The notes beneath the pieces are model-generated. The model had not been told where the DNA came from. It ran no database searches and saw only the letters and a program-made list of their open reading frames with translations. The position numbers and the translations under genes were made by a program. This document shows, one piece after another, positions 9,315-45,590 of a stretch of DNA of 64,000 bases (position 1 is its first letter; every line of letters starts with the position of its first letter). Location: positions 62,001-126,000 of the forward strand of contig CAIRYG010000003.1 in NCBI GenBank assembly GCA_903882745.1. The letters run 5' to 3'. Origin of the DNA: an uncultured Gemmatimonadota bacterium. Its GTDB lineage: Bacteria > Gemmatimonadota > Gemmatimonadetes > Gemmatimonadales > Gemmatimonadaceae.

Positions 9315-10181
9315 ATGAAGCGGCGTGACTTTGTGGGAACGATTGGCGCGGTCGCAGCGGGGACTTCGGTCCTGCCGTCGCTCGCGCGGGCGATTGAGTT
9401 CCTGCCTTCGAACGCGGGTGCGGCCTCGCTCAAGCGGATCGGACTCGAGACGTACTCCGTGCGCGATCGCATGAAGATCGATCCTGACGGCACGCTGCGC
9501 GCGGTGCGCGCGATGGGCTACACCGACGTCGAACTCCTCTGGCAGTTCGACAACTTCGGACGCACCACGGCGCAGGTGAAGGCCGTGCTCGCAAGCACCG
9601 GGCTCAAGGCGCCGTCGGCGCACATCGCGCCAGAGATTCTGCTCAAGGACTGGAACAAGAGTCTCGACACCGCCAAGGAACTTGGACATGAGTACTTGAT
9701 CGTGCCGAGTTTGCCGGCGGAGACGGATACATCACTCGACGCCTGGCGGGTGTGGGCCGATCGCTTCAATACCGCCGGCGACGCGGCACGGCGCGCGGGT
9801 CTTTGGCTCGCGTTTCATAATGAGCCGAGTCATGTAAAGGCGATCGCGCATCAGGTGCCGTACGATCTCTTCATCTCGCTCACCGATCCGAGCACGGTGC
9901 GGTTGCAGCTCGACGTCGGCAACATGTTGCAGGGGGGCGGCGACCCGATGGCGTATCTCACTAAACATGAGGCGCGTTATCACTCATTTCATATCAAGGA
10001 CGTCGTGGCCGACCGCTCGCATGATACGGAGCTGGGCGCGGGAATCTTTGATATCACGACGTTTCTCGGCGCGGTCAAGAACCTGGACACGAAACCCGTC
10101 TACGTGGAGCAGGAATCACCGAAGGATTCGCTGGCGAGCGCGAAGCGGAATCTGGAGTATCTCAGAAAGCTGAGCTTCTAG
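9315..10181 (+). CDS. Tat-exported sugar phosphate isomerase/epimerase-like protein
   Basis: A 288-aa xylose-isomerase-like TIM barrel. It starts MKRRDFVGTIGAVAAG, a twin-arginine leader with cleavage likely near residue 26. Conserved barrel pieces include GLETYSVRDRM, LAFHNEPSH (metal-binding His/Glu region), QLDVGNML (Asp), YHSFHIKD (His) and YVEQES (Glu), so the divalent-metal site looks complete. The start at 9315 has GAGG upstream and lies 7 bp after the GH18-like gene, so the pair is probably one operon. The substrate is unknown. Confidence 0.85.
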   Translation: MKRRDFVGTIGAVAAGTSVLPSLARAIEFLPSNAGAASLKRIGLETYSVRDRMKIDPDGTLRAVRAMGYTDVELLWQFDNFGRTTAQVKAVLASTGLKAPSAHIAPEILLKDWNKSLDTAKELGHEYLIVPSLPAETDTSLDAWRVWADRFNTAGDAARRAGLWLAFHNEPSHVKAIAHQVPYDLFISLTDPSTVRLQLDVGNMLQGGGDPMAYLTKHEARYHSFHIKDVVADRSHDTELGAGIFDITTFLGAVKNLDTKPVYVEQESPKDSLASAKRNLEYLRKLSF

Positions 10182-10301
10182 TCCTGCTTCTCACCACTTC
10201 TCCAAGCCGACAATCGGAGGCAAGAGTTTCAGCGACGAAGCGCTCCACTCATCGCTTCCACCAAGCGCAACAGTGCAAGGAGTTGAAGCAGGCTGACAGC
10301 G

Positions 10302-10844
10302 CTATGGCTTATCGTCAGATCGGCGAAAGCGGACAGCGATTGAAGTTGCCGAGGTATCTGGGCGGCTTCGACTCATTACGACGGAAATAGTCCGTCCCGT
10401 GGCCACGAAGCGTACTTTGCGCGAAGACGTCCCGAGCGCGTCCATGCTTGAATCGATGGGGAGTTCCTTTCCGGCCTCGGCGCGCCGCAGGTTCCCCAGC
10501 TGCCGCGCCCATTCGGATTCTGCTTCTGCGCGTCCGGAAAAATGTCGAACCGCAGCGACGGAAGTGAGCCTGTCCGAGGCACGCATCGTGGTATCAATGC
10601 TGTTGGATATGTAGAAGAACACCTCATAGCCGTCAGGGCCGGTTTCGGTGAGACCGGTGTAAGGAAGGGGCCGAGCTTGCGTACGGAGTTGCCTCAGGTC
10701 AACACCAGACATTCCAAGCCGGACTCCGCCTAGTTCTGCGAATGGGGCAAACTGCTTGATTTCAGCTGGCTCGAGGCGTGCAGCCTTCACGCAGCCGCCG
10801 ACGACGATAAGCGCTGAGAGTAGTAGGCGATTTAGGGCGTGCAT
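10302..10844 (-). CDS. Small lipoprotein, second gene of locus A
   Basis: A 180-aa lipoprotein; the signal MHALNRLLLSALIVVGGC places the lipid Cys at 18. The mature part is mixed alpha/beta with no recognised family. The ATG lies inside the last codons of the upstream gene (13-bp overlap), with no good Shine-Dalgarno sequence, so its translation is probably coupled to that gene. By position it parallels the lipoprotein at 37872-38558 in the related locus B. If the upstream protein is an exported effector, this could be its periplasmic protector, but nothing in the sequence proves that. Confidence 0.75.
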   Translation of the reverse strand: MHALNRLLLSALIVVGGCVKAARLEPAEIKQFAPFAELGGVRLGMSGVDLRQLRTQARPLPYTGLTETGPDGYEVFFYISNSIDTTMRASDRLTSVAAVRHFSGRAEAESEWARQLGNLRRAEAGKELPIDSSMDALGTSSRKVRFVATGRTISVVMSRSRPDTSATSIAVRFRRSDDKP

Positions 10845-12052
10845 GTTTGGGTCTTGAGTTGGTTGTTGCCTAAGGCAGCGATTACCAGCTGCTGGAGCGC
10901 GTAGTTGAACCAGCCTTGCCGATTGGCGCCGATTGAAGCTCCGACATTGTTGTTGTACCGATCCATGCAACCTTCGGTGGCCTCGATCTCTGGACTGTTT
11001 TCGCTTTCGTGAGCGGATCCCCACACGAGCGCACGACCACCTCCGATATCGCGCGCCAACATCGCCATGAAGTACGCATGTCGCATCGCGTCCCATGCGT
11101 CGTTGTGCCCCGCACCGTCTGGAGCCGCTTCTCGGACCCAATCGAACGCGTTGTTGCCGTCCAAGAGATACATAGCGCATTCATAATTGTGTTCGTGGCA
11201 TAAGGTCTTTTCGGTTGGATTCAAGTGCTCGTAGAGGCCCTGATCGATGCCTTCGGGCGCTGCAGCAGGAACACTGCCGCTCGAAGATCCGGTGGAGCCA
11301 CCCCCGCCTCCGTCCACAGGCCCGCCGAATACTCCAGAGCCTCCCCCGCACGAGATTGTAGCCCAATTGGCCACGACACAGTCGTTGGCGCAGAGAAACA
11401 CGTCACCATCCCCGAGGTTCGACATTATGCTCGAGGAGCCAACGATCGATGCAGTTCGAAGTTGCGCATACACACGCGCGCATGTCACCCCGCCGCAGTC
11501 GACGGAGTCTTCGGCGGGGTCATACCAGCACTGCATGGTCTCAATGAGGTTGGAATAGCCAGGCTGTACCCGGAGGTTCGAACCCTGAGACACACCGAGA
11601 TCATTTGCGGCGGACGAAAGATAGCGTCGCGTGAAGGCCACAGCCTCCTTGGTCGCTGGAATCGCGCAGGACGCGTCAAGAATCTTGGCTCCTGTTGCCC
11701 GATCCCAGCGAACGAGACGTGCGACTCCGATGGGTGCTTTCGACTCTACGACTTGCCCTTCCTCGACGGGGTCGACTGTCCGGACACGCTTTCGACCAGC
11801 TAGCTGCGCGGGTAGCGCAAGCACCACGCGCGTCTTACGGGCCTTTTCAGGGGGGTCCGTCGGTCGTCGGGACACTACGTCACAGGAGTTAGTCCCCGCT
11901 AGCGCGAGCGCGATAATCGAGGAATGATCATCGTGCTTGCCAGGCACAGTTAGAGACAGCTCGCCGGTCGGAGCGAGAATGCTTAAATCGCGGGAGCAAG
12001 CTCCGGCGAGCATCACAGCACACAGTAGTCCTCGACGAATCCGCTTCGACAT
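10832..12052 (-). CDS. Cys-rich lipoprotein with DUF6973-like C-terminal domain (locus A)
   Basis: A 406-aa lipoprotein. The start at 12052 (MSKRIRRG) has GGAG 6 nt upstream, and the lipobox is LAGAC. Order: N-domain with a R-x-D-(x)5-K-x-L-x-A-x-C-x-x-P region (about residues 115-132); a Cys-rich module (about 175-235) with VDCGG and LCANDC...WATISC; a Gly/Ser linker (about 236-262); and a C-terminal domain with HNDAWDAMRHAYFMAMLARD and GSAHE. That His/Asp/Arg pattern matches what I recall of DUF6973. The protein ends QTCTP. The N-terminal and Cys modules are also found split over 38546-39993. No enzymatic role is established. Confidence 0.78.
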   Translation of the reverse strand: MSKRIRRGLLCAVMLAGACSRDLSILAPTGELSLTVPGKHDDHSSIIALALAGTNSCDVVSRRPTDPPEKARKTRVVLALPAQLAGRKRVRTVDPVEEGQVVESKAPIGVARLVRWDRATGAKILDASCAIPATKEAVAFTRRYLSSAANDLGVSQGSNLRVQPGYSNLIETMQCWYDPAEDSVDCGGVTCARVYAQLRTASIVGSSSIMSNLGDGDVFLCANDCVVANWATISCGGGSGVFGGPVDGGGGGSTGSSSGSVPAAAPEGIDQGLYEHLNPTEKTLCHEHNYECAMYLLDGNNAFDWVREAAPDGAGHNDAWDAMRHAYFMAMLARDIGGGRALVWGSAHESENSPEIEATEGCMDRYNNNVGASIGANRQGWFNYALQQLVIAALGNNQLKTQTCTP

Positions 12053-12367
12053 TCTCATCTCCGGTTCGAGCGCAGGGTGGATGGTAGAGTCAGTCGCGAG
12101 TGTAGCAGTTCCCGTATTCACGCGCTAGACGTTTTTGCGCCAAGCCCCGGACACCCTGCCTACCGGCCGTACCTTCAACGCGCTTGCGATACCCCTTCAA
12201 CCCATTTCTCTCAGGCGCTTGAGTCTTCGCCCCCGCGGGGGGAACTGGTCCATTGCGACAGGGAATGGAATGACGGGCGCTTTGCCGATGTCCATAGGCA
12301 CAAGGACGCGGGATCGCCGAGTCGGCCCCAGGAAGGCAGCGAGGCGATCCCCAGGCAAGGAGGGAGT
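12053..12367. other. Divergent intergenic region, 315 bp
   Basis: This gap separates locus A (minus) from the broken secreted-protein gene (plus). Both promoters should lie here, but I see no convincing -35/-10 pair. The only local structure is a GC-only palindrome at 12230-12241. The AGGAGG ribosome binding site of the plus-strand gene ends the region (12358-12364). Confidence 0.5.
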
Positions 12368-12410
12368 ATGCGGAGACTCATGGTTGCAGCGGGACTCCTG
12401 GTGGTCGCGG

Positions 12411-12430
12411 TGGCGCAGGCTGGCGCAGGC
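12411..12430 (+). repeat. 10-bp tandem duplication causing a frameshift
   Basis: Two identical adjacent copies of TGGCGCAGGC in the signal-peptide region of the gene starting at 12368. Since 10 is not a multiple of 3, one copy restores and two copies destroy the reading frame. Confidence 0.9.
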
Positions 12431-12777
12431 TGGCGCGCAGGGTGATCCCGGTCGCGGTGGTCCGCCCGATGGGCGCGGTGGTGGCCGCGGCGGGCGAGGT
12501 GGCCCCGAGGGTGCGCAGATGCAGGCGTGCCGTGTGGGCGCCGATTCGCTGACCGATGTGCAGAAGAAGCAGGTCGATCAGTTGGCGCAGCAGTTCGAGA
12601 CGGCAAACAAACTCACGCTCGACAGCCTCAAGGCACTCAGCAAGGAACCGCGACAAGCGCGGATGGCCGCGGTGCGTTCGCTCCAAGAATCGCTGAAGCC
12701 AGCGCTCGATGGATGGCACGCGTCGATAGCCTCCGTGCTGACTAAGAGCCAGCTCGACAAGGGATGCGTGCCCCCTC

Positions 12778-12825
12778 CTCCGGGAGGTCCTCCGGGAGGT
12801 CCTCCGGGAGCTCCTCCGGGAGCTC
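12778..12825 (+). repeat. 12-bp tandem repeats (Gly-Pro-Pro-Gly/Ala)
   Basis: Four near-identical 12-bp units (CTCCGGGAGGTC/CTCCGGGAGCTC) encode the C-terminal Gly-Pro-rich tail of the frameshifted secreted protein. The period keeps frame. Confidence 0.9.
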
Positions 12826-29610: not shown

Positions 29611-30942
29611 GTGACTGACTCGAAACACTCGCTGTTGCGCGTCCTCGGCGTTGCCTTCGGGGTCGCGATTCTCGTCGGGAACACCATCAGCGTCGGGATC
29701 CTCCGCACACCGGGTGAAATCGCCGCCGCCCTCCCGAGCACCCCCTGGTTCCTGGGCGTCTGGATCGCCGGCGGACTCTACGCGATGCTCGGCGCGCTCA
29801 CCCTCGCCGAGCTCGCGGTGATGATCCCGCAGTCAGGGGGGAACTATGTATTTGCCCGCCGCGCCATGGGAGAGTACCCCGGATTTTTGATTGGATGGAC
29901 CGACTGGCTGAGCTGCTCCGCCGCTGTGGCCGCATCGGCTATCGCGTTCGGGGAGGTCGTAGCGCTCAGCATTCCGAGGCTAGGCGTTCCCCAATCCGTG
30001 ATCAGCGTACTCGCCGTGCTCTTTTTCACCGCGATCCAGTGGCCGGGGGTCAAGCAGAGTGACCGCTCACAACAGCTGCTGAGTGTCGTAAAGATTGCCG
30101 CATTGCTGACCGTGGCGATCGCGGGCATTTCGAGTACCGGCGCAGTGAGCGGGCCGAGTACCGCGCCTGCGGCACTCCCGACGGGCATGGCTTTTGTGAC
30201 GGCGCTTATCGTCGTCTTTCAGAGCGTGCTGTTCACATACGATGGGTGGAATGGGGTAACATATTTTGGCGGCGAAATCAGTGACCCCGGCAAACAGATT
30301 CCGCGCGCGATGGCCTATGGTGTCCTCGCGGTAGTCGTCGTGTACTTGGGGCTCAATGTGGCCTTTGTCCACGTCCTCGGAATCCACGGACTCGCCGGCG
30401 CAAAGTTCGCGGCCTCTGATGCCGCGCAGGTGATGTTCGGCACGCGCGGCGAACTGATTGTGCAAGTGGTCACCGCGATCAGCGCACTGGGCGGAATCAA
30501 CGCCATTCTGATGCTCACCTCGCGCATCCCCTACGCGATGGCGCGCGACGGACTCCTCCCACGTGCCGTGGCCCGCGTGAATGTCGGGGGGACCCCGGTT
30601 GGTGCGCTCGCGGTCACCTCGCTCGTGTGCATTGGTCTCATCGTGTCGGGGAGCTTCAATACGGTCCTGGCACTCGCGGCTTTCTTTTACGTGCTGCAAT
30701 ACGCGGTGAACTTCAGCGCGGTGTTCATGTTGCGGCGCTCCGAACCGGATACCCCCCGCCCCTACCGGGCTTGGGGGTATCCGGTGGTCCCCGCCATCGT
30801 GCTGATCGGCGCGATGGCCTTCCTGATTGGGAGTTTCAAGGGGGATTACGAGAACACCATGCGCTCGGTCGCCGTGATTGCGATAAGCGTCCCGGTGTAT
30901 CTGGTTGCGCGCCGGCTCCTGCGCGGGAGTCCCGCGATCTAA
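29611..30942 (+). CDS. APC-family amino acid permease
   Basis: A 443-aa integral membrane protein with about 12 hydrophobic segments. The start region VLVAFG-like reads GVAFGVAILVGNTISVGILRTPG, the G-(x)n-G-I-(F/L) helix-break motif of APC transporters, and GGNYVFARRAMG follows. It should be a proton- or substrate-coupled amino acid transporter in the inner membrane. The start is GTG 29611 without an evident Shine-Dalgarno sequence. A strong hairpin follows the stop. Confidence 0.9.
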   Translation: MTDSKHSLLRVLGVAFGVAILVGNTISVGILRTPGEIAAALPSTPWFLGVWIAGGLYAMLGALTLAELAVMIPQSGGNYVFARRAMGEYPGFLIGWTDWLSCSAAVAASAIAFGEVVALSIPRLGVPQSVISVLAVLFFTAIQWPGVKQSDRSQQLLSVVKIAALLTVAIAGISSTGAVSGPSTAPAALPTGMAFVTALIVVFQSVLFTYDGWNGVTYFGGEISDPGKQIPRAMAYGVLAVVVVYLGLNVAFVHVLGIHGLAGAKFAASDAAQVMFGTRGELIVQVVTAISALGGINAILMLTSRIPYAMARDGLLPRAVARVNVGGTPVGALAVTSLVCIGLIVSGSFNTVLALAAFFYVLQYAVNFSAVFMLRRSEPDTPRPYRAWGYPVVPAIVLIGAMAFLIGSFKGDYENTMRSVAVIAISVPVYLVARRLLRGSPAI

Positions 30943-30946
30943 GCAA

Positions 30947-30991
30947 CCGCGAGGGGGCCATTCCCTGCGAGATTGGCCCCCACCCTCGCGG
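30947..30991 (+). terminator. Hairpin terminator after permease
   Basis: A 9-bp perfect outer stem (CCGCGAGGG with CCCTCGCGG), extended by GG/CC and CCA/TGG pairs around small bulges, begins 5 bp after the permease stop. Confidence 0.65.
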
Positions 30992-31069
30992 ACGCCGTGT
31001 CCTCACCCCATTTTCCAGTGGTTGCGCCCTACGTTGCGCAGCGCCCGAGACCCCACCGGAGAATGCCCG

Positions 31070-32731
31070 ATGACCCTGTCGCACCTGATTCGTCGCACCG
31101 CCGCCGCTGTCGCGGTTGTGGCCGCGCTCGCCCCATCGCTGTCGGCCCAGGGCCGTGGCGGTTCCGGCGCTGCCGATTCCATCAAGTACAAGTACGCCAC
31201 CACTGCGCAGCTCGATAAGTACAAAGACGAGATCACGCGCGAGGTCGACGCCAAGGCCAAGATGATCCAGGAGATGGTGGATCAGGTCTTCTCCTTCGGC
31301 GAACTCGGCATGCAGGAGTTCGAGACCAGCAAGTATCTCACCGGCATCCTCGAGCAAAACGGCTTCAAGGTCGAGCGCGGCGTGGCAGGAATCCCCACGG
31401 CCTTCGTCGCCCGCTGGAGCAGTGGTAGCGGCAAGCCGGTCATCTCGCTCGGCTCCGACATCGACGACATCCCGCAGGCGAGCAACAAGCCCGCCGTCGG
31501 CTCGCACGAGCCGCTCGTGGCTGGCGCGCCTGGACATGGCGAAGGCCATAACGCCGGCGTTCCGCTCAACATCGCCGCCGCGCTGGTGGTGAAGAAGATC
31601 ATGGAGCGCGACCACCTCAGCGGCACCATCGAACTCTGGCCGGGCGTCGCCGAAGAACAGATGGCGGGCAAGGCGTTCCTGGTTCGCGCTGGTGTTTTCA
31701 AGAATGTGGACGCGGTGCTTTTCACGCACGTCGGCAACGATCTCGGCGTCAGCTGGGGTCAGAGCAGCAGCAACGCGCTCATCTCCGCGATCTTCAAGTT
31801 CAAGGGCGAGAGCGCCCACGCCGCTGGCGCCCCGTGGCGCGGCAAGAGCGCGCTCGACGCCGTGATGCTTATGGCTAACGCGTGGGAGTTCCACCGCGAA
31901 CACATGGAACTGCCCCAGCGCTCGCACTACGTGATTCCCGACGGCGGCGACCAGCCGAACGTCGTGCCGATCACGAGCAGTATCTGGTTCTATTTCCGTG
32001 AGCGCGACTACGACCGCACCATGAAGATGTTCGACGACGCCAAGAAGATGGCGCAGGGTGCCACAATGATGACCGGCACCAAGCTCGACACGGTCATGAT
32101 GGTTGGCTCGGGCTGGAGCGGTCACTTCAGCCGTCCGATCGCCGAGGCCATGTACGCCAACATTCAGAAAGTCGGGATGCCCAAGTGGGACGAGAACGAC
32201 CAAGCGCTCGCCAAGGGCTTGCAGCGTGAACTCGGCGTTCGCGAAACGGGGCTCTCCTCCACCGGCGGCCGCCTCGGCGGCCCCGTGAACGAAGCCACCC
32301 GCATGGGCGGTGGCTCCGACGACATTGGCGACGTGGCGTGGACCGTTCCGACGATCACGCTGAACTTCCCGTCGAACATCCCAGGTACCCCGGGGCATAA
32401 CTGGGCCAACGCGATTGCGATGGCCACGCCGATCGCGCACAAGGGCGTTGTAGCTGGCGCCAAGGTTCAGGCGATGACGATGATCGACCTGATCCTGACG
32501 CCGCAGATCGTGGTCGACGCAAAGGACTACTTCGACAACGTCCAGACCAAGGAGATCAAGTACAAGCCCTTCATCGCGCCGACCGACCTGCCGCCGATTT
32601 GGCTGAACGCCGAGATCATGGCGAAGTACCGCGAGCAGATGAAGAAGTTCTACTACGATCCCAAGAAGTACAAGACGTACCTCGAGCAGCTCGGGATCAC
32701 CTATCCGACGGTGAAGAAGATCCTGCAGTAG
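31070..32731 (+). CDS. Secreted M20 amidohydrolase (AbgB-like)
   Basis: A 553-aa M20-family enzyme of the aminobenzoyl-glutamate hydrolase B-like group. The signal peptide is MTLSHLIRRTAAAVAVVAALAPSLSAQ. Metal-binding pieces include LGSDIDDIP, GHGEGHNAG, GVAEEQMAG and the late TPGHNWAN. It should hydrolyse an N-acyl amino acid bond in the periplasm. The start at 31070 has GGAG 9 nt upstream; upstream extension would remove the signal peptide from the N-terminus. A strong terminator hairpin follows 21 bp after the stop. Confidence 0.9.
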   Translation: MTLSHLIRRTAAAVAVVAALAPSLSAQGRGGSGAADSIKYKYATTAQLDKYKDEITREVDAKAKMIQEMVDQVFSFGELGMQEFETSKYLTGILEQNGFKVERGVAGIPTAFVARWSSGSGKPVISLGSDIDDIPQASNKPAVGSHEPLVAGAPGHGEGHNAGVPLNIAAALVVKKIMERDHLSGTIELWPGVAEEQMAGKAFLVRAGVFKNVDAVLFTHVGNDLGVSWGQSSSNALISAIFKFKGESAHAAGAPWRGKSALDAVMLMANAWEFHREHMELPQRSHYVIPDGGDQPNVVPITSSIWFYFRERDYDRTMKMFDDAKKMAQGATMMTGTKLDTVMMVGSGWSGHFSRPIAEAMYANIQKVGMPKWDENDQALAKGLQRELGVRETGLSSTGGRLGGPVNEATRMGGGSDDIGDVAWTVPTITLNFPSNIPGTPGHNWANAIAMATPIAHKGVVAGAKVQAMTMIDLILTPQIVVDAKDYFDNVQTKEIKYKPFIAPTDLPPIWLNAEIMAKYREQMKKFYYDPKKYKTYLEQLGITYPTVKKILQ

Positions 32732-36358: not shown

Positions 36359-36688
36359 TCAGTCCACGATGAACAACCGCGCCCCGGTCGCCGTCGTGGA
36401 CCGATGCGCCAACGCCCCGTCCGCGACCTGGTAGCTCATCCCGGCCGTGAGTCGCACCGTCCGCCCATCGGCGAGTTCGGTGTCGAGCACCCCGTCGAGC
36501 ACGAGCAGCACATGCCCCTTCTGGCACCAATGGTCGGCCAGGTAGTTGGCGGAGTAGTCGACCATCCGCACGCGGATCGCCCCGAACTGCTGCGTCCGCC
36601 AATGGGCGATCCCCGTCTCGCCCGGGTGGACGGTCGGCGTGACCGCGCTCCAGTCCACAGTCTCGAAGGGTATGTCGGTCATCTGCAT
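36359..36688 (-). CDS. DHCW-motif cupin protein
   Basis: A 109-aa small cupin. It contains ADHWCQKGHVLLVLDG, the hallmark of DHCW-motif cupin proteins, and the order of strands fits a single beta-barrel. There is no signal peptide. Starts at 36688 (MQMTD) and 36682 (MTD) are possible; a longer frame to 36784 would read through the neighbouring repeat and is rejected. The biochemical role of this family is not known to me. It marks the intact side of the accessory-segment boundary. Confidence 0.8.
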   Translation of the reverse strand: MQMTDIPFETVDWSAVTPTVHPGETGIAHWRTQQFGAIRVRMVDYSANYLADHWCQKGHVLLVLDGVLDTELADGRTVRLTAGMSYQVADGALAHRSTTATGARLFIVD

Positions 36689-36758
36689 GTGAAGAACGTT
36701 ACAGCCCGCGTCGTGAAGAGGGGAGCCTGGAACCGTCGTTACCTTTCCGTGAAGGTTC

Positions 36759-36816
36759 CCTAAAATCCCACGACACCCCTGCACTCGGCAACCTCCCCAA
36801 CTGCGGAGCCACCGTG
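36759..36816 (-). repeat. Distal copy of the TonB-receptor 3' end (direct repeat)
   Basis: This 58-bp stretch matches 41241-41299 with two substitutions and one 1-bp indel. On the minus strand it encodes TVAPQLGRLPSAGVSWDF, the receptor C-terminus, but the missing base removes the stop codon from frame. It has no upstream receptor sequence. The two copies, in the same orientation, bracket the 36.8-41.2 kb accessory segment. Confidence 0.9.
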
Positions 36817-36915
36817 ACCAAGGAGCAGCGCGACGCCGCGGCGGCGACCGGCGCGAAGGACGGGATGGAGATGGGGTTCAAGCGGCTTGAGGAGTACGCG
36901 GCGACGATGGGGTGA
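36814..36915 (+). pseudogene. C-terminal fragment of an SRPBCC/AHSA1-like protein
   Basis: An open stretch of 33 residues beginning TKEQRDAAAATGAKDGMEMG and ending RLEEYAATMG resembles the last helix of SRPBCC (AHSA1-type) proteins, where a TGMxxGxxxSxxRLxELL pattern is usual. The rest of the domain is absent: the sequence directly before it is the TonB-receptor repeat. It is therefore a truncated remnant joined at the repeat edge. Confidence 0.6.
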
Positions 36916-36940
36916 GGCAGAACATCGATCGACGTGGAAA

Positions 36941-36969
36941 GCGGCACCGCACGAGCCGTGCGGTGCCGC
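36941..36969. terminator. Hairpin, 12-bp stem
   Basis: GCGGCACCGCAC-GAGCC-GTGCGGTGCCGC lies 25 bp after the SRPBCC fragment. The T-richer tail (TTTCC) is on the minus strand. It probably once ended the SRPBCC gene and survives with it. Confidence 0.6.
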
Positions 36970-37151
36970 GTGCGTATGATGTTGCCTCAGTCTTGATCTC
37001 GCGTGCTCAGAGTGTCAGCCTCCGAGCCTCGTCACGAACTACTGTGGTTCAAGTTCACCGGAAGATTATGAGCCGTCCGAACGGTGGCTTGACCTACGCG
37101 ACGACCCTGAAACGCGAATGAGATCTAAGCCACCGAAGGCCTCGACTTCCC

Positions 37152-37424
37152 CTACGACGGCCCCGCGGAATCGATCTTCCGGCGAGCACGTTCTTCAGCG
37201 ACGATGAAAGCTAGACTCCCGAGAAGGAGAACAGAGATCGATCCGTACATCACGAAACCGCTAGGGAAAAGTGCGCCGATCAGAACCGCACTGGTCGACA
37301 GAATCACAGCGAAGCCGCCTAAGACGCGAGAATTTCGCTGCCGCACGGGCATCTCGGCTGCCTTGATCGCTAGAATCAGGCAAATCACTATCAAGGCCAA
37401 TCCAGACCCAACAAGATAAGACAT
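37152..37424 (-). CDS. Small membrane protein, three predicted TM segments
   Basis: A 90-aa protein with three hydrophobic stretches (about residues 3-21, 35-53 and 57-76) and a charged C-terminus with EERARRK. No family is recognised. It lies in the accessory segment among gene fragments, with A+T content higher than its surroundings. The clear membrane pattern supports a real gene. Confidence 0.6.
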   Translation of the reverse strand: MSYLVGSGLALIVICLILAIKAAEMPVRQRNSRVLGGFAVILSTSAVLIGALFPSGFVMYGSISVLLLGSLAFIVAEERARRKIDSAGPS

Positions 37425-37553
37425 ATCTCACCTTTCGAATGTCAGACGACTGGTGTGGTGAAGATGCTCGTCACGGTTCTAGCAGGACGTTTGAATACGT
37501 AGCAATCATTGATTGTAGACGCAATAGAGGTAGCCACCACCAGCGACGAGGAA

Positions 37554-37790
37554 TGCTCCGGTAGCACGTGCAGCCGCTTCAACAGCTGGGCCAAGCTCAG
37601 CGCGATGCTGGAGCCGGAGAACCTGACGCGCCGCGTCTACGGATTCGATACCTTCGCCGGCTTCCCTTCGGTCTCCGAGCAGGACCGCTTTCTCGGTCAC
37701 GTGGACAAGGCGCACCTGGTGAAGGGCGACGTCTGCGAATCGATCCCCCGGTTCGTCGCCGAGCATCCGCACCTGCTCGTCAGCCTGCTG
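37554..37790 (+). pseudogene. Fragment of a TylF-like methyltransferase
   Basis: The stretch FNSWAKLSAMLEPENL, RRVYGFDTFAGFPSVSEQD and VKGDVCESIPRFVAEHPHLL matches the middle of TylF/macrocin O-methyltransferase-like proteins. The N-terminal cofactor region and everything after VSLL are missing. The join between SEQDR and FLGHV is shorter than I expect, suggesting an internal deletion as well. No plausible start exists. This is a relic of a secondary-metabolism or glycan-modifying gene. Confidence 0.65.
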
Positions 37791-37871
37791 TTGGGCGGTG
37801 CGGCCAGCGCACCGCCCCCCGCTCATATCTAAGAGTGCTCCTAGTTTCCAATCGGCAATACCCGCATCGCA

Positions 37872-38558
37872 CTATCGCGCCAACGGCAACCCGCGGGCCT
37901 TGCGAACAGAGTCAACCAAGCCCAACGCTCTAACACGACTTGCCCCGCTGGGAGACCATCCAATCTCCTTGGGGCCGATCGCGATCACGTCGAAGCCCTC
38001 GCGAGTGTCGCCGCAGACTCGCCAGTTTGGATTGCCGGCAAGGGACCGAACTAGAGTCCAGGTCGCCGTATCCTCGCGGGCACCCAACGTAGCCACGTAC
38101 TTCGAAGCATGTGCCAGGGACTCTCTTTGATCCGCGACGCTCGTAAGTATCGATTGAATCACGACGGTGTCGCCAATGGTTCGACCGCCGGGCAGAACAC
38201 GGAAGTCCGCAACCCAGAGCGCTCGCATGAAGTTCAAAGCAGGGCCGCAGATCGAGTCTTCGCGCACACTTGCGTACGCGCCGACTTTCAATCGTCGACC
38301 GGCAATCGCGAGATCGAGATAACGCTCCAGCTGCTGCCGCGCAGAGTCCACTGACAAGGGTTGCGCGATTGCGGCCGACGACTTCGTTCCGGCGCCCCCC
38401 GAGGGTTGTCGGACATCGCCGGAAGGTTGACCCGTGCACGCGGTCGCGACGATCAGCGTCAGGGAGAACATACCGAGCATCCCGCTTCGATTTGAGGATC
38501 GTGCATTTGCTAGCGCCCTTCCTAGACCGAAACGTCGAATCTGCACTATGGATTGCAT
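37872..38558 (-). CDS. Lipoprotein, last gene of locus B
   Basis: A lipoprotein of 228 aa from ATG 38558 or 202 aa from ATG 38480. The lipobox is TLIVATAC in either case. The longer start lies within the last codons of the upstream gene at the same 13-bp overlap seen in locus A (10844/10832), which argues for coupled translation; the shorter start gives a more usual signal peptide. The mature part has a helical region (about 70-180 of the long form) with paired Cys (SICGP, RVCGD). It is not clearly similar in sequence to the locus A lipoprotein. Family unknown. Confidence 0.72.
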   Translation of the reverse strand: MQSIVQIRRFGLGRALANARSSNRSGMLGMFSLTLIVATACTGQPSGDVRQPSGGAGTKSSAAIAQPLSVDSARQQLERYLDLAIAGRRLKVGAYASVREDSICGPALNFMRALWVADFRVLPGGRTIGDTVVIQSILTSVADQRESLAHASKYVATLGAREDTATWTLVRSLAGNPNWRVCGDTREGFDVIAIGPKEIGWSPSGASRVRALGLVDSVRKARGLPLAR

Positions 38559-39415
38559 GGGACGAGTTGCCGGAAGAAGAGTGGTTGGCTCGCGTTAAGA
38601 GGGTCGAAAGAGATCACACCGGTGACGCCGTCGTGGTTCGCTGTGTTCTCCGTCGCGGGCGTCCCGTTATTCGCAAGCCCCAAGATCCGGCCGTTTGTGG
38701 AAGGTCCGATGAACAGGCCAGCATGGCCGCCACGAACCACCACGTCGCCCTGTCTCGCTTCCGCAGCAGATACCGCCACGTAGCCGTTGGCCGCAATGAG
38801 CCCCGCTGAATAGGTCCGAAACTGGGTAGTGGTAAGGTACTTGGCTAGCGACTTCCAGCCAGTCGAATCGAGGGCAACCTGTGAGGCCGCGAAAACGTAG
38901 TCGGTGCAGTCTCCCCACTTGGCAGCGCGGTCCTTGGCGTGCTCACTGCCACCCTTCGCACCGCCTTGCGTGTAGTTCCACTCGCCCGACGCCTTGGCCG
39001 CGTCGAACATCTTTCTTGACTCGGCTTCGTTTGCAGAACGCGTACACTCTTCGAACGCAATGCATGCCGTACTGACCTCCGCAGAAGGTCCGCCAATAGC
39101 TCGTTCGTCTGAGGAATAGACTCGCTCAGGATGAAAGAGTATCGCCTCTTGCTCAGGCCACAGCCGTGGCCCACTTTCGAGCCCTTGAGGATCGCATCCT
39201 CCCAGCAGATCGAGAGGATCTTCGTCGATGGTTGGCACCCATCCGCCGCCGGACTCGCCACCATCGATGACCGTACCGGTTCCGTCGTTGCAATAGTAGC
39301 TTGCCCACGAATAGATGTAGCAACCATTGTCACATTGCAACACCTCGTTTCCCCATAGATTGGACGACGCGGCCTGCCCATCCGCGCCCGCGCGATGAGC
39401 TGACTGCGCATTCAC
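38546..39415 (-). CDS. Cys-rich protein with NlpC/P60-like C-terminal domain (locus B, second half)
   Basis: A 289-residue frame starting at GTG 39415, which overlaps the upstream stop as GTGA. It has no signal peptide. Residues 20-45 carry the Cys module (QCDNGCYIYSWASYYC) also found in the locus A lipoprotein. The C-terminal part has WGDCTDYVFAAS (candidate nucleophile Cys) and GDVVVRGGHAGLFIG (candidate His), as in NlpC/P60 or CHAP amidases. It ends QLVPCNP, matching the locus A tail QTCTP. Alignment with locus A suggests this is the second half of one protein, separated from 39412-39993 by a frameshift. Confidence 0.75.
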   Translation of the reverse strand: MNAQSAHRAGADGQAASSNLWGNEVLQCDNGCYIYSWASYYCNDGTGTVIDGGESGGGWVPTIDEDPLDLLGGCDPQGLESGPRLWPEQEAILFHPERVYSSDERAIGGPSAEVSTACIAFEECTRSANEAESRKMFDAAKASGEWNYTQGGAKGGSEHAKDRAAKWGDCTDYVFAASQVALDSTGWKSLAKYLTTTQFRTYSAGLIAANGYVAVSAAEARQGDVVVRGGHAGLFIGPSTNGRILGLANNGTPATENTANHDGVTGVISFDPLNASQPLFFRQLVPCNP

Positions 39416-39993
39416 AATGCGTGTACGTTTCCGTCACAGTCGGCATGTGCATATCCATCGCCGACGCACGCGACGTAGCTCGAGGTCCAGACATTCGCGG
39501 AACCAGTCGAGCGGAACAGAGAGTCCGGAACGCCTGGCGCACTCAGATGCCCCGCACGTGAGTCGGGCAACGCCATTGTCGCGAGTTGCCCGAGAAGTGC
39601 CCGACCCGTCGAGTCGTTCTTCGGGACGACGCACTCGGCCTGCAGTGTCTTCACGCGTGATCTTGCATCGAGGCGAATATAGGACATCGCCTTCACAATC
39701 GTAGAATCACGCGCAAGGCCAGTGAGCGCGAGTGCGCGGCGCGAGCGCCCAACGCTGGCCCTCCATTCAGGAGAGGCGACATCGTATCGTACCGGCACCC
39801 CGACCCGAAGTCCACTCGCGTCGAATACTGTGACTGTGCAGAGGTACAGGTTGCTCTCTGTGACCTTGAGTTCGGACGTAGAAACCAAGCCCTCAGGCTC
39901 TGCTTCACGAGCCAACGGTGCAGCGCGCTCCGAATGGCAGGCTGCCGTTACGAGAATGGCGATCGCCAGCCATGCACGAATTGATCGTCTCAA
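39412..39993 (-). CDS. Lipoprotein, first half of locus B Cys-rich protein
   Basis: A 193-aa lipoprotein. The start is TTG 39993 with GAGG 5 nt upstream, giving signal LRRSIRAWLAIAILVTAAC. The longer open frame upstream is Arg/Pro-rich and lies over the transposase remnant, so it is rejected. The region RLDARSRVKTLQAECVVP aligns with RWDRATGAKILDASCAIP in the locus A lipoprotein, and ADCDGN near the end aligns with VDCGGV. The remainder of the locus A architecture continues in the next frame after the stop. It may be a broken gene, or a split gene relying on GTGA reinitiation or -1 frameshifting. Confidence 0.7.
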   Translation of the reverse strand: MRRSIRAWLAIAILVTAACHSERAAPLAREAEPEGLVSTSELKVTESNLYLCTVTVFDASGLRVGVPVRYDVASPEWRASVGRSRRALALTGLARDSTIVKAMSYIRLDARSRVKTLQAECVVPKNDSTGRALLGQLATMALPDSRAGHLSAPGVPDSLFRSTGSANVWTSSYVACVGDGYAHADCDGNVHAL

Positions 39994-40063
39994 GATGTCC
40001 TCGAAAGTAGTGTGCCGAACGGGATAGGAATTTCGATCTGGGTCGGTTGAGTGTACGACACGA

Positions 40064-40441
40064 TCACCGCCCGCACGAGCACCGACTGGCGGGTGGCGGC
40101 GGGCCCGCCGACTCGTTCGTGCGCCTCGAGGGCCGTGGGAACGGCGGTTGGGAACGGCGGGCACCGTGGGGGGCGCGATGCCGGCGGGGGCCAATCCGTC
40201 GCGCCGATGGGGGGCTCCGCGGCCCGGCGTGCGCCTCACGGGAGGCGTGGGTCCGGAGGTGGGTGAGGATCTGGTCGATCACCGACGTCTGCGTGATGAT
40301 GGCGACGATGCGCATCGCGCCGTGGCAGCTGGGACACGCGAGCGGGTCGACCTCGAAGATCTGCTGAAGCAGGGTCGCCCACCGGCGGGACGCCTCGGTC
40401 GGGGCCAGCGGTCGCGCGATCTCTGTCAGACGCTTGTTGAA
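40064..40441 (-). pseudogene. C-terminal remnant of an IS91/ISCR-like transposase
   Basis: The reading WATLLQQIFEVDPLACPSCH, GAMRIVAIIT and SVIDQILTHL matches the C-terminal end of IS91/IS801-type transposases, with its CPxCxGxMR zinc-like motif. The catalytic HUH and tyrosine region is absent. A Pro/Arg-rich tail follows. No terminal sequences of the element are recognisable. It implies past rolling-circle transposon activity in this segment. Confidence 0.7.
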
Positions 40442-40485
40442 CCAAGATGCGGTGCGAAACGTATTGTTTCGCACCGCATCGCCCC

Positions 40486-41028
40486 TTAAGGGCGCTTTGG
40501 CGCTGCGCCGATGATGCTGTGCCCCAACTCGACTTCCCCTTGGCCCTCGGCCCGCCAGACCCCTCGATCGAGGCGTACGGTTACCGTGGTGCTCGCTACC
40601 TCGTATGAGCCCGTCGCACTAGGGGGCGAAATCAATTGCACGTGCACACGCTGCGCCCCATCTGCCTGCGGAACCGGGAGGGACACGCGCAACACGGAAA
40701 GCCGTCCACGCGTGACGCATCCGGCCTCGCAGGTCAGCGCGTCGTTGTGTGCTTTGACATGTGCCACCTTGAGATGCCGAGCGATCGCCTCCGCCTCTGC
40801 CCGATCCTGCGTCATCGTGCCACGTCCGCGCGCCGGCTGATTCTCGCCGGCATTCCACGCCTCAGGGACGATGTCGAGCTCCCTGGCCTCCGCACGAAGA
40901 GCCTTCAGCGCATCGACTGCCGCCGCCTCGCGCGCTGACTTTCCGGAGCCGCGCTCGGCTTTTCCGGTCTGCGCCTCAAGGCCGACGGTCGCGGTGACAA
41001 GTAGCGTTACTACCATCGCGATTCTCAT
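40486..41028 (-). CDS. Exported protein of unknown function
   Basis: A 180-aa protein with signal peptide MRIAMVVTLLVTATVGLEAQ; the start at 41028 has GGGGAG 7 nt upstream. A helical charged stretch (about residues 22-80) precedes a beta-rich part (about 90-175) with LTCEAGCVTRG (a possible disulfide) and repeated V-x-V strands. No family recognised. It lies between the transposase remnant and the TonB receptor, inside the accessory segment. Confidence 0.7.
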   Translation of the reverse strand: MRIAMVVTLLVTATVGLEAQTGKAERGSGKSAREAAAVDALKALRAEARELDIVPEAWNAGENQPARGRGTMTQDRAEAEAIARHLKVAHVKAHNDALTCEAGCVTRGRLSVLRVSLPVPQADGAQRVHVQLISPPSATGSYEVASTTVTVRLDRGVWRAEGQGEVELGHSIIGAAPKRP

Positions 41029-41240
41029 GTGAGACTCCCCAGTGAATGAATTCAAAACCACACGCAATGTGATCCCGCTAGTTGCCGGTACACGCCCTAC
41101 CCATTCGCTCAGCTTCAGCGTCATCAGTACCAAGACCAAACGCGGCATGATAGGCCTCGTGCGCCCGCGTCACGCGGTGTTGGCCTCGAAGCTCGCGCGG
41201 TCGCTCAAATCACTCACAGCGCACTCCGTTGATCGGGTCT

Positions 41241-41299
41241 CCTAAAACTCCCACGATACCCCCGCACTCGGCAACCTCCCCAACTGCGGAGCCACCGTG
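41241..41299 (-). repeat. Proximal copy of the direct repeat, at the TonB-receptor 3' end
   Basis: The last 59 bp of the receptor gene (TVAPQLGRLPSAGVSWEF and stop) recur, slightly diverged, at 36759-36816 in the same orientation. This copy is in the intact gene. Confidence 0.9.
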
Positions 41300-43554
41300 T
41301 GCGTGAAGCTCAACACGTTGTTCCGCACCGACGCCCGGTAGATGTACGCCGCCGCGTTCTCCGTGTCGAACACATTGAACAGATCCACGAAGAACGCGAA
41401 CTTCCCGCGCGACGTCTCCACCTCGCGCGTCGCCCGCAAGTCCGCGCGGTGATACCACGGCAACCGACTCGCGCCGAGCGCGGTGATCGGTCCGTACTCC
41501 GTCAGGATCACCACCTGGCGTCCCGTGCGTCCCACGCGCACCGTGTCCGCCACCGCGTGCACCGGTGACTCGGGCCACCCGCTGTGCACCTGCCACGCGC
41601 CGGAGAATCTCCATCCGGAACCGACCGGCTTGTACGAGAGGTCCACGTACGCCGTGTGCTGCTGATCGAAGGTGCGAGGCACGAGCACACCGCTCACTTT
41701 GTCCGCGACATACGACTGCGCATAACTCGCCGACACATCCCAGCCGATCTTCGACGTGACCTGCGTGCTCAGCTCCACACCGCGCGCCACCCCTTCGGTC
41801 GCATTGCGGAAGGTGCGATCCAGATTCAGCTCCGGAAAGACGATCACGTCCGACCGCAGATTCACGTAGCGCGGCCGCTCCTGCGTCGTGATCCGCTCGT
41901 ACCCCTCCACGCGCATCGTCGTGTTCGACCAGGGATGATACTCGACGCCGAGCACGCGATGCTCCGCGATGTCCGCGGCGGCGAATGTCGTCACCGCGTC
42001 CTGCACCTGGAGCCCGAAGATCTGCTGCGGCTGCACGTAGCGCCCCGTCGCCAATCGCAGCGAGAGTTTGGGCGTGATGGTGATGAGCGCATTCGCACGC
42101 GGACTCACCAGCGCATCCTTCGTCCAGCTCGCCTGGTCATACCGCGCGCCGATCTCCGTCACCAGCCAACTGAACGGCTTGAAACGTGGCGCCAAATACG
42201 CGCTCGCCTGCGTGCCGTTCGTCTGCATCTTCGTCAGATAGGGCACGATATCATCCACGAGCGTATCCGCCTGCACGCGCCGGATCGAGCGCTGTGCGGA
42301 ATAGTCGTACGTCCCCTTCTGCGGCTTGAGCTCCGCGCCCCAGCGCCACGCCCATCGGTCGCCGAGTGAGAGCGTCCAGTCGCTGCGCACACCCACGAAG
42401 TTGAACTCACGGATATCGTGTACCTTGCTGCGCACGGGCGCCGACCCCTGCTCGTCCCCTTGTCGTTGCCAGGTCAGCTTCCCGCTCGAGAGCACGGTGC
42501 GCGCCACGAGCTTGTCGCCGAACTGCCCGTCCCACGTGAGCCAGCCATAGTTGCTGCCGTAGCTGCTCGCGATCGAGCCGTCCTTGATCGCGTATTGCGT
42601 CTTGTCCCCCGCGAGCAACAGCTGCGCGGAGAGCGTGTGATGCGCCGAGAGTTCGTACTGCGTCTTGGCGAACACATCGCTGTAGGTGGGGTTCAGCGAG
42701 TCCGCGCGCCCAGCGAGTTTGAGCGCCAAGTCCAAGTAGCCGCGTCGTGCCGACACGAGCCAGCTCCCGCGCCCGTTGTCAAACCCACCCTGCGTCTGCG
42801 CACGCAAGTTCGTCACGCTCACACCAACCGCCGTTCGCACGCGATCGGTCTTGGGGTCCGTTGATTTCAATGCGAGCACCGAGCCCAACCGCCCACCATG
42901 ATCGGCAGTGAAACCACTCGTTGTCAGCTCAACCCCGCCAATACTCTGCACATCAAGAATAGAGATGGCGTTATCGAAGTCCTTCATATGAAAGGGTTCG
43001 TACAACTCCATCCCATCCAACGTCACGAGCGTCTGATCCACCTCCGCGCCGCGCACATGGAAGCCGGCGCTGAAATCACCACTCGTCACACCGGGCAATC
43101 GATTGATGGACCGAAAGAGATCCTCGCCTAACTGCGGGCGTGTCATCAGCTGCTCACGCCCGATGGATTGCATGGACGGCGTCGTCTGCGTCATCAACCC
43201 AAAGAACCCAGGGGAAACGACAACCGCCGAGAGCGGGAGGGGAGCGCGCGTCAGTTGCGTGCGGAGCGTGGCAGCAGTGCTGTCACCCCCCACCAAGAGC
43301 GCGCTCTGCACGAGCGGCAAAAATCCGAGTCGGGTAAACCGGAGCTGCGCCTCCCCAGCTGGGACGCGTTCCAGCACATACACGCCGTCCTCGCCCGTCA
43401 CCGTGCGGCGCCCCGCCCCAACGAGCTCCACCCGAACGCCAGAAATCGGCACATGCGCGGAATCGCTCACGACCCCCCTGATCCGAACGAGCCCCTGCGC
43501 CTCGACTACTGTCGTAATAAGCGACAATATGGCGATACTAAAGAGCCACTGCAA
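41242..43554 (-). CDS. TonB-dependent receptor with carboxypeptidase-regulatory domain
   Basis: A 770-aa outer-membrane receptor. It starts at TTG 43554, preceded by GGAG; a CTG start 42 nt further upstream with GAGGAG is an alternative. The signal peptide ends TTVVEAQ. A CarboxypepD_reg-like domain (about residues 22-105, IRGVVSDSAHVPISGVRVELV) is followed by the plug (about 115-230, INRLPGVTSGDFSAGFHVRGA and QTLVTLDGMELYEPFHM) and a beta-barrel ending in aromatic SWEF. It should import a siderophore, glycan or peptide with TonB energy; there is no clear ligand clue. Its 3' end is duplicated 4.4 kb downstream. Confidence 0.92.
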   Translation of the reverse strand: MQWLFSIAILSLITTVVEAQGLVRIRGVVSDSAHVPISGVRVELVGAGRRTVTGEDGVYVLERVPAGEAQLRFTRLGFLPLVQSALLVGGDSTAATLRTQLTRAPLPLSAVVVSPGFFGLMTQTTPSMQSIGREQLMTRPQLGEDLFRSINRLPGVTSGDFSAGFHVRGAEVDQTLVTLDGMELYEPFHMKDFDNAISILDVQSIGGVELTTSGFTADHGGRLGSVLALKSTDPKTDRVRTAVGVSVTNLRAQTQGGFDNGRGSWLVSARRGYLDLALKLAGRADSLNPTYSDVFAKTQYELSAHHTLSAQLLLAGDKTQYAIKDGSIASSYGSNYGWLTWDGQFGDKLVARTVLSSGKLTWQRQGDEQGSAPVRSKVHDIREFNFVGVRSDWTLSLGDRWAWRWGAELKPQKGTYDYSAQRSIRRVQADTLVDDIVPYLTKMQTNGTQASAYLAPRFKPFSWLVTEIGARYDQASWTKDALVSPRANALITITPKLSLRLATGRYVQPQQIFGLQVQDAVTTFAAADIAEHRVLGVEYHPWSNTTMRVEGYERITTQERPRYVNLRSDVIVFPELNLDRTFRNATEGVARGVELSTQVTSKIGWDVSASYAQSYVADKVSGVLVPRTFDQQHTAYVDLSYKPVGSGWRFSGAWQVHSGWPESPVHAVADTVRVGRTGRQVVILTEYGPITALGASRLPWYHRADLRATREVETSRGKFAFFVDLFNVFDTENAAAYIYRASVRNNVLSFTHTVAPQLGRLPSAGVSWEF

Positions 43555-43787
43555 CAGGCTCCGGCCAAGGCGCGCGCAACCGATCAGAAAGACTCCTCCT
43601 CAGATACGTCCACAATAAATACGAAACCAACGGCTCGTTACCTCAGACCGACCCCCGCGCGTCACCCCTCGGCGGAGAGGACACGAATAACCGTCTCCCT
43701 ACTATAAGATACCGCACGCCCTTCGCCCGCCTTGCCATTCCACCGTCCAATGAACAGACTCACCCATACCCGTAAAAACGAGGAATC

Positions 43788-45590
43788 GTGAGCGTGAGGC
43801 CCACTGACGTTGGCACGCCTCTCCACTACCACAAGGTGGTGGACTGCCAGTATGCATGCCCGGCACATACCAATGTGCCTGAGTATCTGCGACTGATCGC
43901 CCAAGGAGAATACTCCGAGTCCTACCTCCTCAACCGGGAGTCTAATGTTTTTCCAGGGATCCTCGGCCGCACCTGCGACCGCCCCTGCGAGCCGGCCTGC
44001 CGACGCGGGCGCGTAGACGGAACGCCGGTCGCCATCTGCCGCCTCAAACGGGTCGCCGCTGATCTCCGCGACGACATCACCGATCGCCTCCCCACCGCGC
44101 CCGCCGTCAAAAACGGCAAGCGCATCGCGATGATTGGCTGCGGCCCCTCCTCGCTCACCGTCGCCAACGACCTGCTCCCACTCGGCTACGACGTCACGAT
44201 CTACGAAAAGCACTCGCAGGCCGGCGGCCTGATGCGGTTCAACATCCCCGCCTTCCGTCTCCCCGCGCAGGTGCTTGATGACGAAACCGGCTACGTGATC
44301 AACATGGGCGCCACCGTGAAATACAACACATCGGTGGACTCGCTCAAGTCACTACTCAATGAGGGATACGACGCGGTGTATGTTGGCAGCGGCGCCCCCA
44401 AAGGAAAAGAGCTCGACATCCCGGGCCGCTGGGACGGCAACGCGAAAGACGCCGTCCACATCGGCATCGAATGGCTTGGCTCGGTGCACTTCGGCCATAT
44501 CGAAAAAATCGAACCGCGCGTGCTCATTATTGGCGTCGGCAATACCGCAATGGATTGCTGCCGCACCTCCAAGCGACTCGGTGCCACTGACGTAAAAGTC
44601 ATCGCCCGTCGCTCCCGCAAATATTTCAAAGCGTCGCCGTGGGAGCTTGAGGACGCCGAGGAAGAGCAGGTCGAGATTGTTGAGAACCACGCCCCCAAGC
44701 GCTTCGTGTACGAGAACGGCACCCTCGTCGGCATGGAGTTCGAAGTACTCGAGTGGACAGAATCGGGCGGCAAGCAGAAGAGCACGGTGAAGAGCACGGT
44801 GATCATCCCCTGTGACTCCGTGATCCTCGCGATTGGGCAGGACAACGCCTTCCCTTGGATCGAGCGCGATATCGGCATCACCTTCGGCGAGTGGGACATG
44901 CCGGAAGTGGACAAGATCACGCACCAAAGTACGAACCCGAAAGTGTTCTTCGGCGGCGACGCTGCCTGGGGCCCGCAGAATATCATCTGGGCCGTGGAGC
45001 ATGGACATCAAGCGGCCGTGAGCATCCATCAGTTCTGCCAAGAGCTGAGCCCCGCCGAACGGCTTCCCTTCGGCATGAACTTGGTGAGCGTCAAAAACGG
45101 CATGCAGTCGTGGGCGTATAGCAACGACTTCAATCCGAGCCCGCGCGCCAAAATGACGCACGAGGAGCTCGTGAAGCGCTTCTCTGGTGTCGGCGTCGAA
45201 GTGGAACTTGGCTTCTCCGCCGAGCAGACGGCGACCGAAGTACAGCGCTGCCTGAACTGTGACATCGAGACGCACTTCGAGAGCAAGTTGTGCATTGAGT
45301 GCGACGCGTGCGTGGACGTCTGCCCCACGAGCTGCCTCACAATCGCGCCAGCAACCGAAACGCTCGACGAGCTCCGCGCAAAGCTCAGCGCGCCAGCCGT
45401 GAATCTCACGCAAGACATCTACACCTCGAATCCACTCCCACAGACGAAGCGTCTGATGGTGAAGGACGAAGACATCTGCTTGCATTGCGGGCTCTGCGCC
45501 GAACGTTGTCCAACGGCCGCGTGGGACATGCGCAAGTTTGAGCTCGTCGTCCCGTATGCCTTCGCCCATAGCGCACAGGCCACCGCATGA
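43788..45590 (+). CDS. NAD(P)H/FAD oxidoreductase with two C-terminal 4Fe-4S clusters
   Basis: A 600-aa protein of the glutamate-synthase small-subunit type. Order: N-terminal Fe-S domain with CQYACPAHTN and CDRPCEPACRRG; FAD-binding IGCGPSSLTVANDL (about residue 120); NAD(P)-binding IGVGNTAMDCCRTSKRLG (about 245); then two ferredoxin motifs, CIECDACVDVCPTSC (about 505) and CLHCGLCAERCP (about 565). It should pass electrons between NAD(P)H and ferredoxin-type centres. Start GTG 43788 has GAGG 4 nt upstream. It overlaps korA by 4 bp, so it is likely the electron-transfer subunit of the 2-oxoacid oxidoreductase. Confidence 0.9.
   Translation: MSVRPTDVGTPLHYHKVVDCQYACPAHTNVPEYLRLIAQGEYSESYLLNRESNVFPGILGRTCDRPCEPACRRGRVDGTPVAICRLKRVAADLRDDITDRLPTAPAVKNGKRIAMIGCGPSSLTVANDLLPLGYDVTIYEKHSQAGGLMRFNIPAFRLPAQVLDDETGYVINMGATVKYNTSVDSLKSLLNEGYDAVYVGSGAPKGKELDIPGRWDGNAKDAVHIGIEWLGSVHFGHIEKIEPRVLIIGVGNTAMDCCRTSKRLGATDVKVIARRSRKYFKASPWELEDAEEEQVEIVENHAPKRFVYENGTLVGMEFEVLEWTESGGKQKSTVKSTVIIPCDSVILAIGQDNAFPWIERDIGITFGEWDMPEVDKITHQSTNPKVFFGGDAAWGPQNIIWAVEHGHQAAVSIHQFCQELSPAERLPFGMNLVSVKNGMQSWAYSNDFNPSPRAKMTHEELVKRFSGVGVEVELGFSAEQTATEVQRCLNCDIETHFESKLCIECDACVDVCPTSCLTIAPATETLDELRAKLSAPAVNLTQDIYTSNPLPQTKRLMVKDEDICLHCGLCAERCPTAAWDMRKFELVVPYAFAHSAQATA

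Follow-up and report, generated by a model that had tools for sequence, protein, structure and literature searches.

In the genome of an uncultured Gemmatimonadota bacterium (G000), the last bases of a TonB-dependent receptor gene occur twice, on either side of a 4.4-kb patch of accessory DNA. How did the second gene end come to be there, and does the pair mark the borders of a live mobile element? The locus was analysed in a window of 64,000 nucleotides, which is the whole stretch of DNA considered here. The repeats resemble the scar of an ordinary rearrangement more than the termini of a functioning mobile element. Our tentative preference is for a single past insertion at the receptor 3' end, of which the repeats are the scar, followed by exchange of the filled allele between sister species.

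The repeat pair and the DNA between its copies

The receptor is a protein of 770 aa with CarboxypepD_reg and Plug domains, encoded on the minus strand at 41242-43554. The proximal repeat copy (41240-41299, minus strand) is its functional 3' end and completes the gene, as one repeat does in integrative elements. The distal copy (36757-36816) lies on the same strand. A repeat search of the window found the two in the same orientation, 4483 bp apart and with 92% ungapped identity. In a DNA search of the whole 3.06-Mb genome they aligned with a single gap at 95% (E 2.7e-19), and a third copy is absent.

The repeat consists of the last codons of the receptor and a few bases past the stop. The preliminary description had reported that the last ~58 bp of the gene recur distally in the same orientation with two substitutions and one indel, and this was confirmed. 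The indel is a 1-bp deletion in the distal copy, which puts the stop codon there out of frame; similarity may start a few bases further left. In the closest relative (G010) it extends about 9 bases beyond the stop codon, so that the repeat measures 64 bp at 93.8%.

Three other relatives (G011, G017, and G015) have receptors that match the proximal copy at the deleted base and at one of the two substituted positions. Because of this agreement, and because the deletion shifts the stop out of frame, the distal copy with its derived changes is, on this comparison, a decayed relic. A search of the patch found no further receptor traces between the two copies, and the idea of a second receptor that decayed in place was rejected for that reason.

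The distal copy adjoins a DHCW-motif cupin gene (36359-36691, minus strand). At its inner edge begins the tail of an AHSA1-like gene (36817-36915, plus strand), of which the last 32 codons and the stop remain, cut mid-frame exactly at the repeat edge. A hairpin (36941-36969) lies 3' of this tail. It is followed by a gene for a small unassigned protein of 90 aa (37152-37424, minus strand), in a region identical in G010, and by a gene fragment (37509-37832, plus strand), which has relatives in five further genomes of the family. By a motif only, the fragment may be methyltransferase-like.

Next come the gene for a lipoprotein-like protein of 228 aa (37872-38558) and, directly upstream of it, locus B, both on the minus strand. 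Locus B is split by a frameshift near 39420 into an N-terminal half (39412-39993) with a lipoprotein signal and an N-terminal module, and a C-terminal half (38546-39415) with a Cys-rich linker and a CHAP-like domain. The remaining features, also on the minus strand, are the 3' remnant of an IS91-family element (40020-40418) with an oriIS-like end near 40020, and a gene for a secreted protein of 220 aa (40486-41148). IS91 copies of 1.78 kb occur in two other genomes (G057 and G054).

Each of the two genomes has its own deletions. The window has lost 90 bp from the gene fragment, between 8-bp repeats AGGACCGC, and 144 bp inside the IS91 remnant; G010 has lost 229 bp of the secreted protein gene, including its start, likewise between short direct repeats. 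The AHSA1-like tail, IS91 3' remnant, gene fragment, frameshift-split gene, and small unassigned proteins agree broadly with the accessory content first described. Neither the patch of G000 nor that of G010 has a Phage_integrase or Resolvase match, as an integrative and mobilizable element (IME) would; a CIME is by definition without one. Neither the patch nor its lipoprotein matched anything in plasmid, phage, and viral collections.

The patch in related genomes

G010 (JAPLKT010000151.1, a metagenome bin from Lac Pavin) has the same layout, with both repeat copies and the same joint to the AHSA1-like tail. The whole patch is absent from the other 16 genus genomes examined, 5 of which match its IS91-type pieces only. 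The preliminary description had named a complete second receptor at 36.8 kb as the finding that would speak against integration; none was seen in relatives. Five other receptor loci in other relatives likewise have no duplicated receptor end.

The receptors of G011, G017, and G015 are about 55% identical to that of the window. In all three, a gap of 240-700 bp separates the receptor 3' end from the end of an M20-like peptidase gene (window counterpart 30905-32731), and in G011 and G017 an oxidoreductase gene (43788-45590 in the window) stands on the receptor's other side. A cupredoxin, two amidohydrolases, and the cupin are all absent from this site, as is the patch; other genomes have cupin and amidohydrolase genes at different places and in different settings. 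Judged from this gene order, the patch adjoins a second accessory block (cupredoxin, amidohydrolases, and cupin). Since the receptor-bearing relatives lack both the patch and the neighbouring block, the genomes examined offer no clean empty site of the kind that the preliminary description had proposed as a check.

Two other starting points were considered and rejected. TonB receptors stand beside 4 of 28 family cupins, as candidate empty sites, but they lie downstream of the cupin and are only 32% identical to the window receptor. An ancestral neighbourhood of cupin and AHSA1 genes, with the 60 bp as the insert, found no counterpart, as none of the 28 cupins has an AHSA1 gene within 1.5 kb.

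Between G000 and G010, one genome per species and the latter a metagenome bin, the stretch 36597-41355 differs at 18 of 4541 positions (0.4%, against 7.0% elsewhere in the window). No other stretch of this length in the window is as low; the minimum is 35 mismatches, at 10.1-14.7 kb. The tract overshoots the repeats, starting 153 bp to the left of the distal copy and stopping 56 bp to the right of the proximal one. Outside it, a cupin stretch (36452-36596) differs by 18% and a receptor stretch (41356-42640) by 14%.

An island exchanged by homologous recombination is expected to show such a low-divergence tract reaching into common flanks, whereas a patch that had inserted itself in each species should stop at the repeats. 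The patch was thus probably passed between the two related species, and the overshoot points to homologous recombination in the flanks as the route by which the filled allele was exchanged. Divergence is likewise just 0.9% at 42641-44998, so that a larger exchange may have been overlaid later by divergent tracts.

Two details of the flanks deserve mention. The receptor gene is 14% divergent in its 3' half and under 1% in its 5' part, which could reflect an imported tract or strong diversification. The 145-bp cupin stretch, at 18%, lies between far more similar sequence.

Locus B belongs with two other loci of this genome. In G010 it is a single lipoprotein ORF of about 479 aa, which in the window a 1-nt frameshift divides in two. 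The C-terminal domain has a weak CHAP match (E 0.0083). In two class-level relatives, G341 and G356, VgrG proteins carry a C-terminal extension with 41% identity to this domain (the VgrG genes with such an extension lie at L138 4637-7516 and L139 1969-4836). Its N-terminal module resembles, weakly (about 30%), those of a locus at 10.8-12.0 kb and of one on contig C13, and each of the three loci has a small gene directly downstream. Sister locus A (10302-12049) encodes a modular lipoprotein with a DUF6973 C-terminus; its island (10171-12810) shows zero substitutions between G000 and G010. The third locus (L096 512-2156, on C13) combines the same module, its N-terminal part in another frame, with a different C-terminus that contains an HEAAH motif.

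Beyond these two genomes, a search of 177 family genomes found the module only in G070, as a weak match. In G070 (L147 5998-6355, L142 1381-3209), this relative of the module is a DUF6973 protein with a downstream gene, and an IS91 fragment sits no more than about 2 kb away. No IS91 copies lie near the sister loci, either elsewhere in the window or on C13. A common N-terminal module with varied C-termini (CHAP-like, DUF6973, and unassigned) is the pattern of a polymorphic effector locus, here with weak similarity between the modules. Locus B and its sisters may be effector-immunity pairs, and a role in immunity for the 228-aa partner of locus B would be our guess.

Origin of the duplicated gene end

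In the insertion model, incoming DNA, perhaps a circle, would have brought with it a related receptor's final ~60 bp. A Campbell-type single crossover with the resident gene end, through this ~60-bp homology, would leave one complete receptor and, fused to a truncated AHSA1-like gene, an orphan gene end. Homologous recombination in the flanks would later have carried the filled allele, with locus B, from one sister species to the other, while the remainder of the patch decayed by deletions. The observations in favour are that there are only two copies, the distal one decayed, with identical joints in G010; that the tract of low divergence is wider than the repeats; that deletions mark the patch; and that it holds neither an integrase or resolvase nor other receptor remnants. 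The initial crossover, the circle, and the later exchange with its direction are inferred. The mid-frame cut of the AHSA1-like gene at the left joint is what an illegitimate joint closing the insertion should look like. Our reading of the founding event rests on a single structure, and one deletion in a second receptor would give the same joint.

Such a receptor, duplicated or imported, would once have ended at 36757 before the cupin; a single deletion, spanning from within the receptor's final 60 bp to a point inside an AHSA1-like gene, would have removed the rest. This is a simple step in a patch where deletions are frequent, and the distal copy stands at a natural distance from the co-directional cupin gene and retains a few bases beyond the stop. 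No relative has a second receptor here, however, and insertion is narrowly preferred because the patch holds no trace of one; the deletion model is possible, and the less probable of the two. Less likely again is an integrase-bearing element that inserted at the receptor 3' end, regenerated the gene end and has since lost its integrase. Elements of this kind use the 3' ends of protein genes, one repeat restoring the gene, and their repeats are generally 8-60 bp long; CIMEs lack an integrase and retain both att sites (PMC5704250). The layout and the repeat length fit elements of this type. Neither species' patch has an integrase or resolvase, however, and the inner edge of the distal repeat cuts a gene mid-frame, unlike the usual att edge, so that the element could be present only as a remnant. 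Nor do the five other receptor loci have a second insertion at the gene end, and the targets listed for integrative elements are mainly tRNA and housekeeping genes (PMC5704250). As recombinase arms, inverted repeats inside the 60-bp repeat amount to just a weak fold, and no RNA family or tRNA gene was found as an att site. Of the integration at a gene end proposed in the preliminary description, one part stands, namely accessory DNA between two copies of a gene end; the recombinase is missing and the inner edge does not fit. It is more doubtful still that receptor 3' ends serve as a landing site for small integrase-less cassettes (a modular lipoprotein, its C-terminus CHAP-like or DUF6973, paired with a partner gene) moving between Gemmatimonadota species.

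The other mechanism first proposed, one-ended transposition of an IS91-like element that carried the patch and made the duplication, has in its favour a genuine IS91-family remnant with an oriIS-like end inside the patch. A one-ended event starts from the oriIS end (PMC13023784), which should therefore mark a border of the moved DNA. Here the intact oriIS-like end near 40020 lies at distances of 3.2 and 1.2 kb from the two repeats. Since this end is interior, the patch does not owe its borders to one-ended transposition, and nothing in the IS91 mechanism copies a receptor 3' end. Its position largely refutes the proposal, to which we give hardly any credence.

Comparison with known systems

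The locus resembles integrative and mobilizable elements and CIMEs at the 3' ends of protein genes such as guaA and trmE (PMC5704250): a gene 3' end is directly repeated, one copy makes the gene whole, and accessory cargo lies between the two. The patch differs in that it has no integrase or mobilization genes, its inner edge cuts a gene, and no excised circle or second site is known. With IS91/ISCR elements it shares a 3' remnant with an oriIS-like end, but this remnant is truncated, interior, and away from the borders.

The CHAP-like domain of locus B recalls evolved VgrG effectors with a peptidoglycan-hydrolase-like C-terminus, to whose extension it has the 41% identity given above. In locus B, however, the domain rides on a lipoprotein-type N-terminal module rather than on VgrG, and hydrolase activity is putative. 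A wider lead is the family of modular secreted-protein loci, two of which sit in the window's two most similar islands.

The mechanism is ordinary, and the case tells a rearrangement scar from a live mobile element. A small accessory patch is found nearly unchanged across a species boundary, and its modular secreted-protein locus is a possible reason for the spread. In this respect the patch is like replacement islands exchanged via conserved flanks (PMC10872708), which also combine near-identical accessory DNA with divergent surroundings and edges in common flanks. Unlike them, it is only 4.4 kb long, consists largely of debris, and is flanked by the two copies of a gene end.
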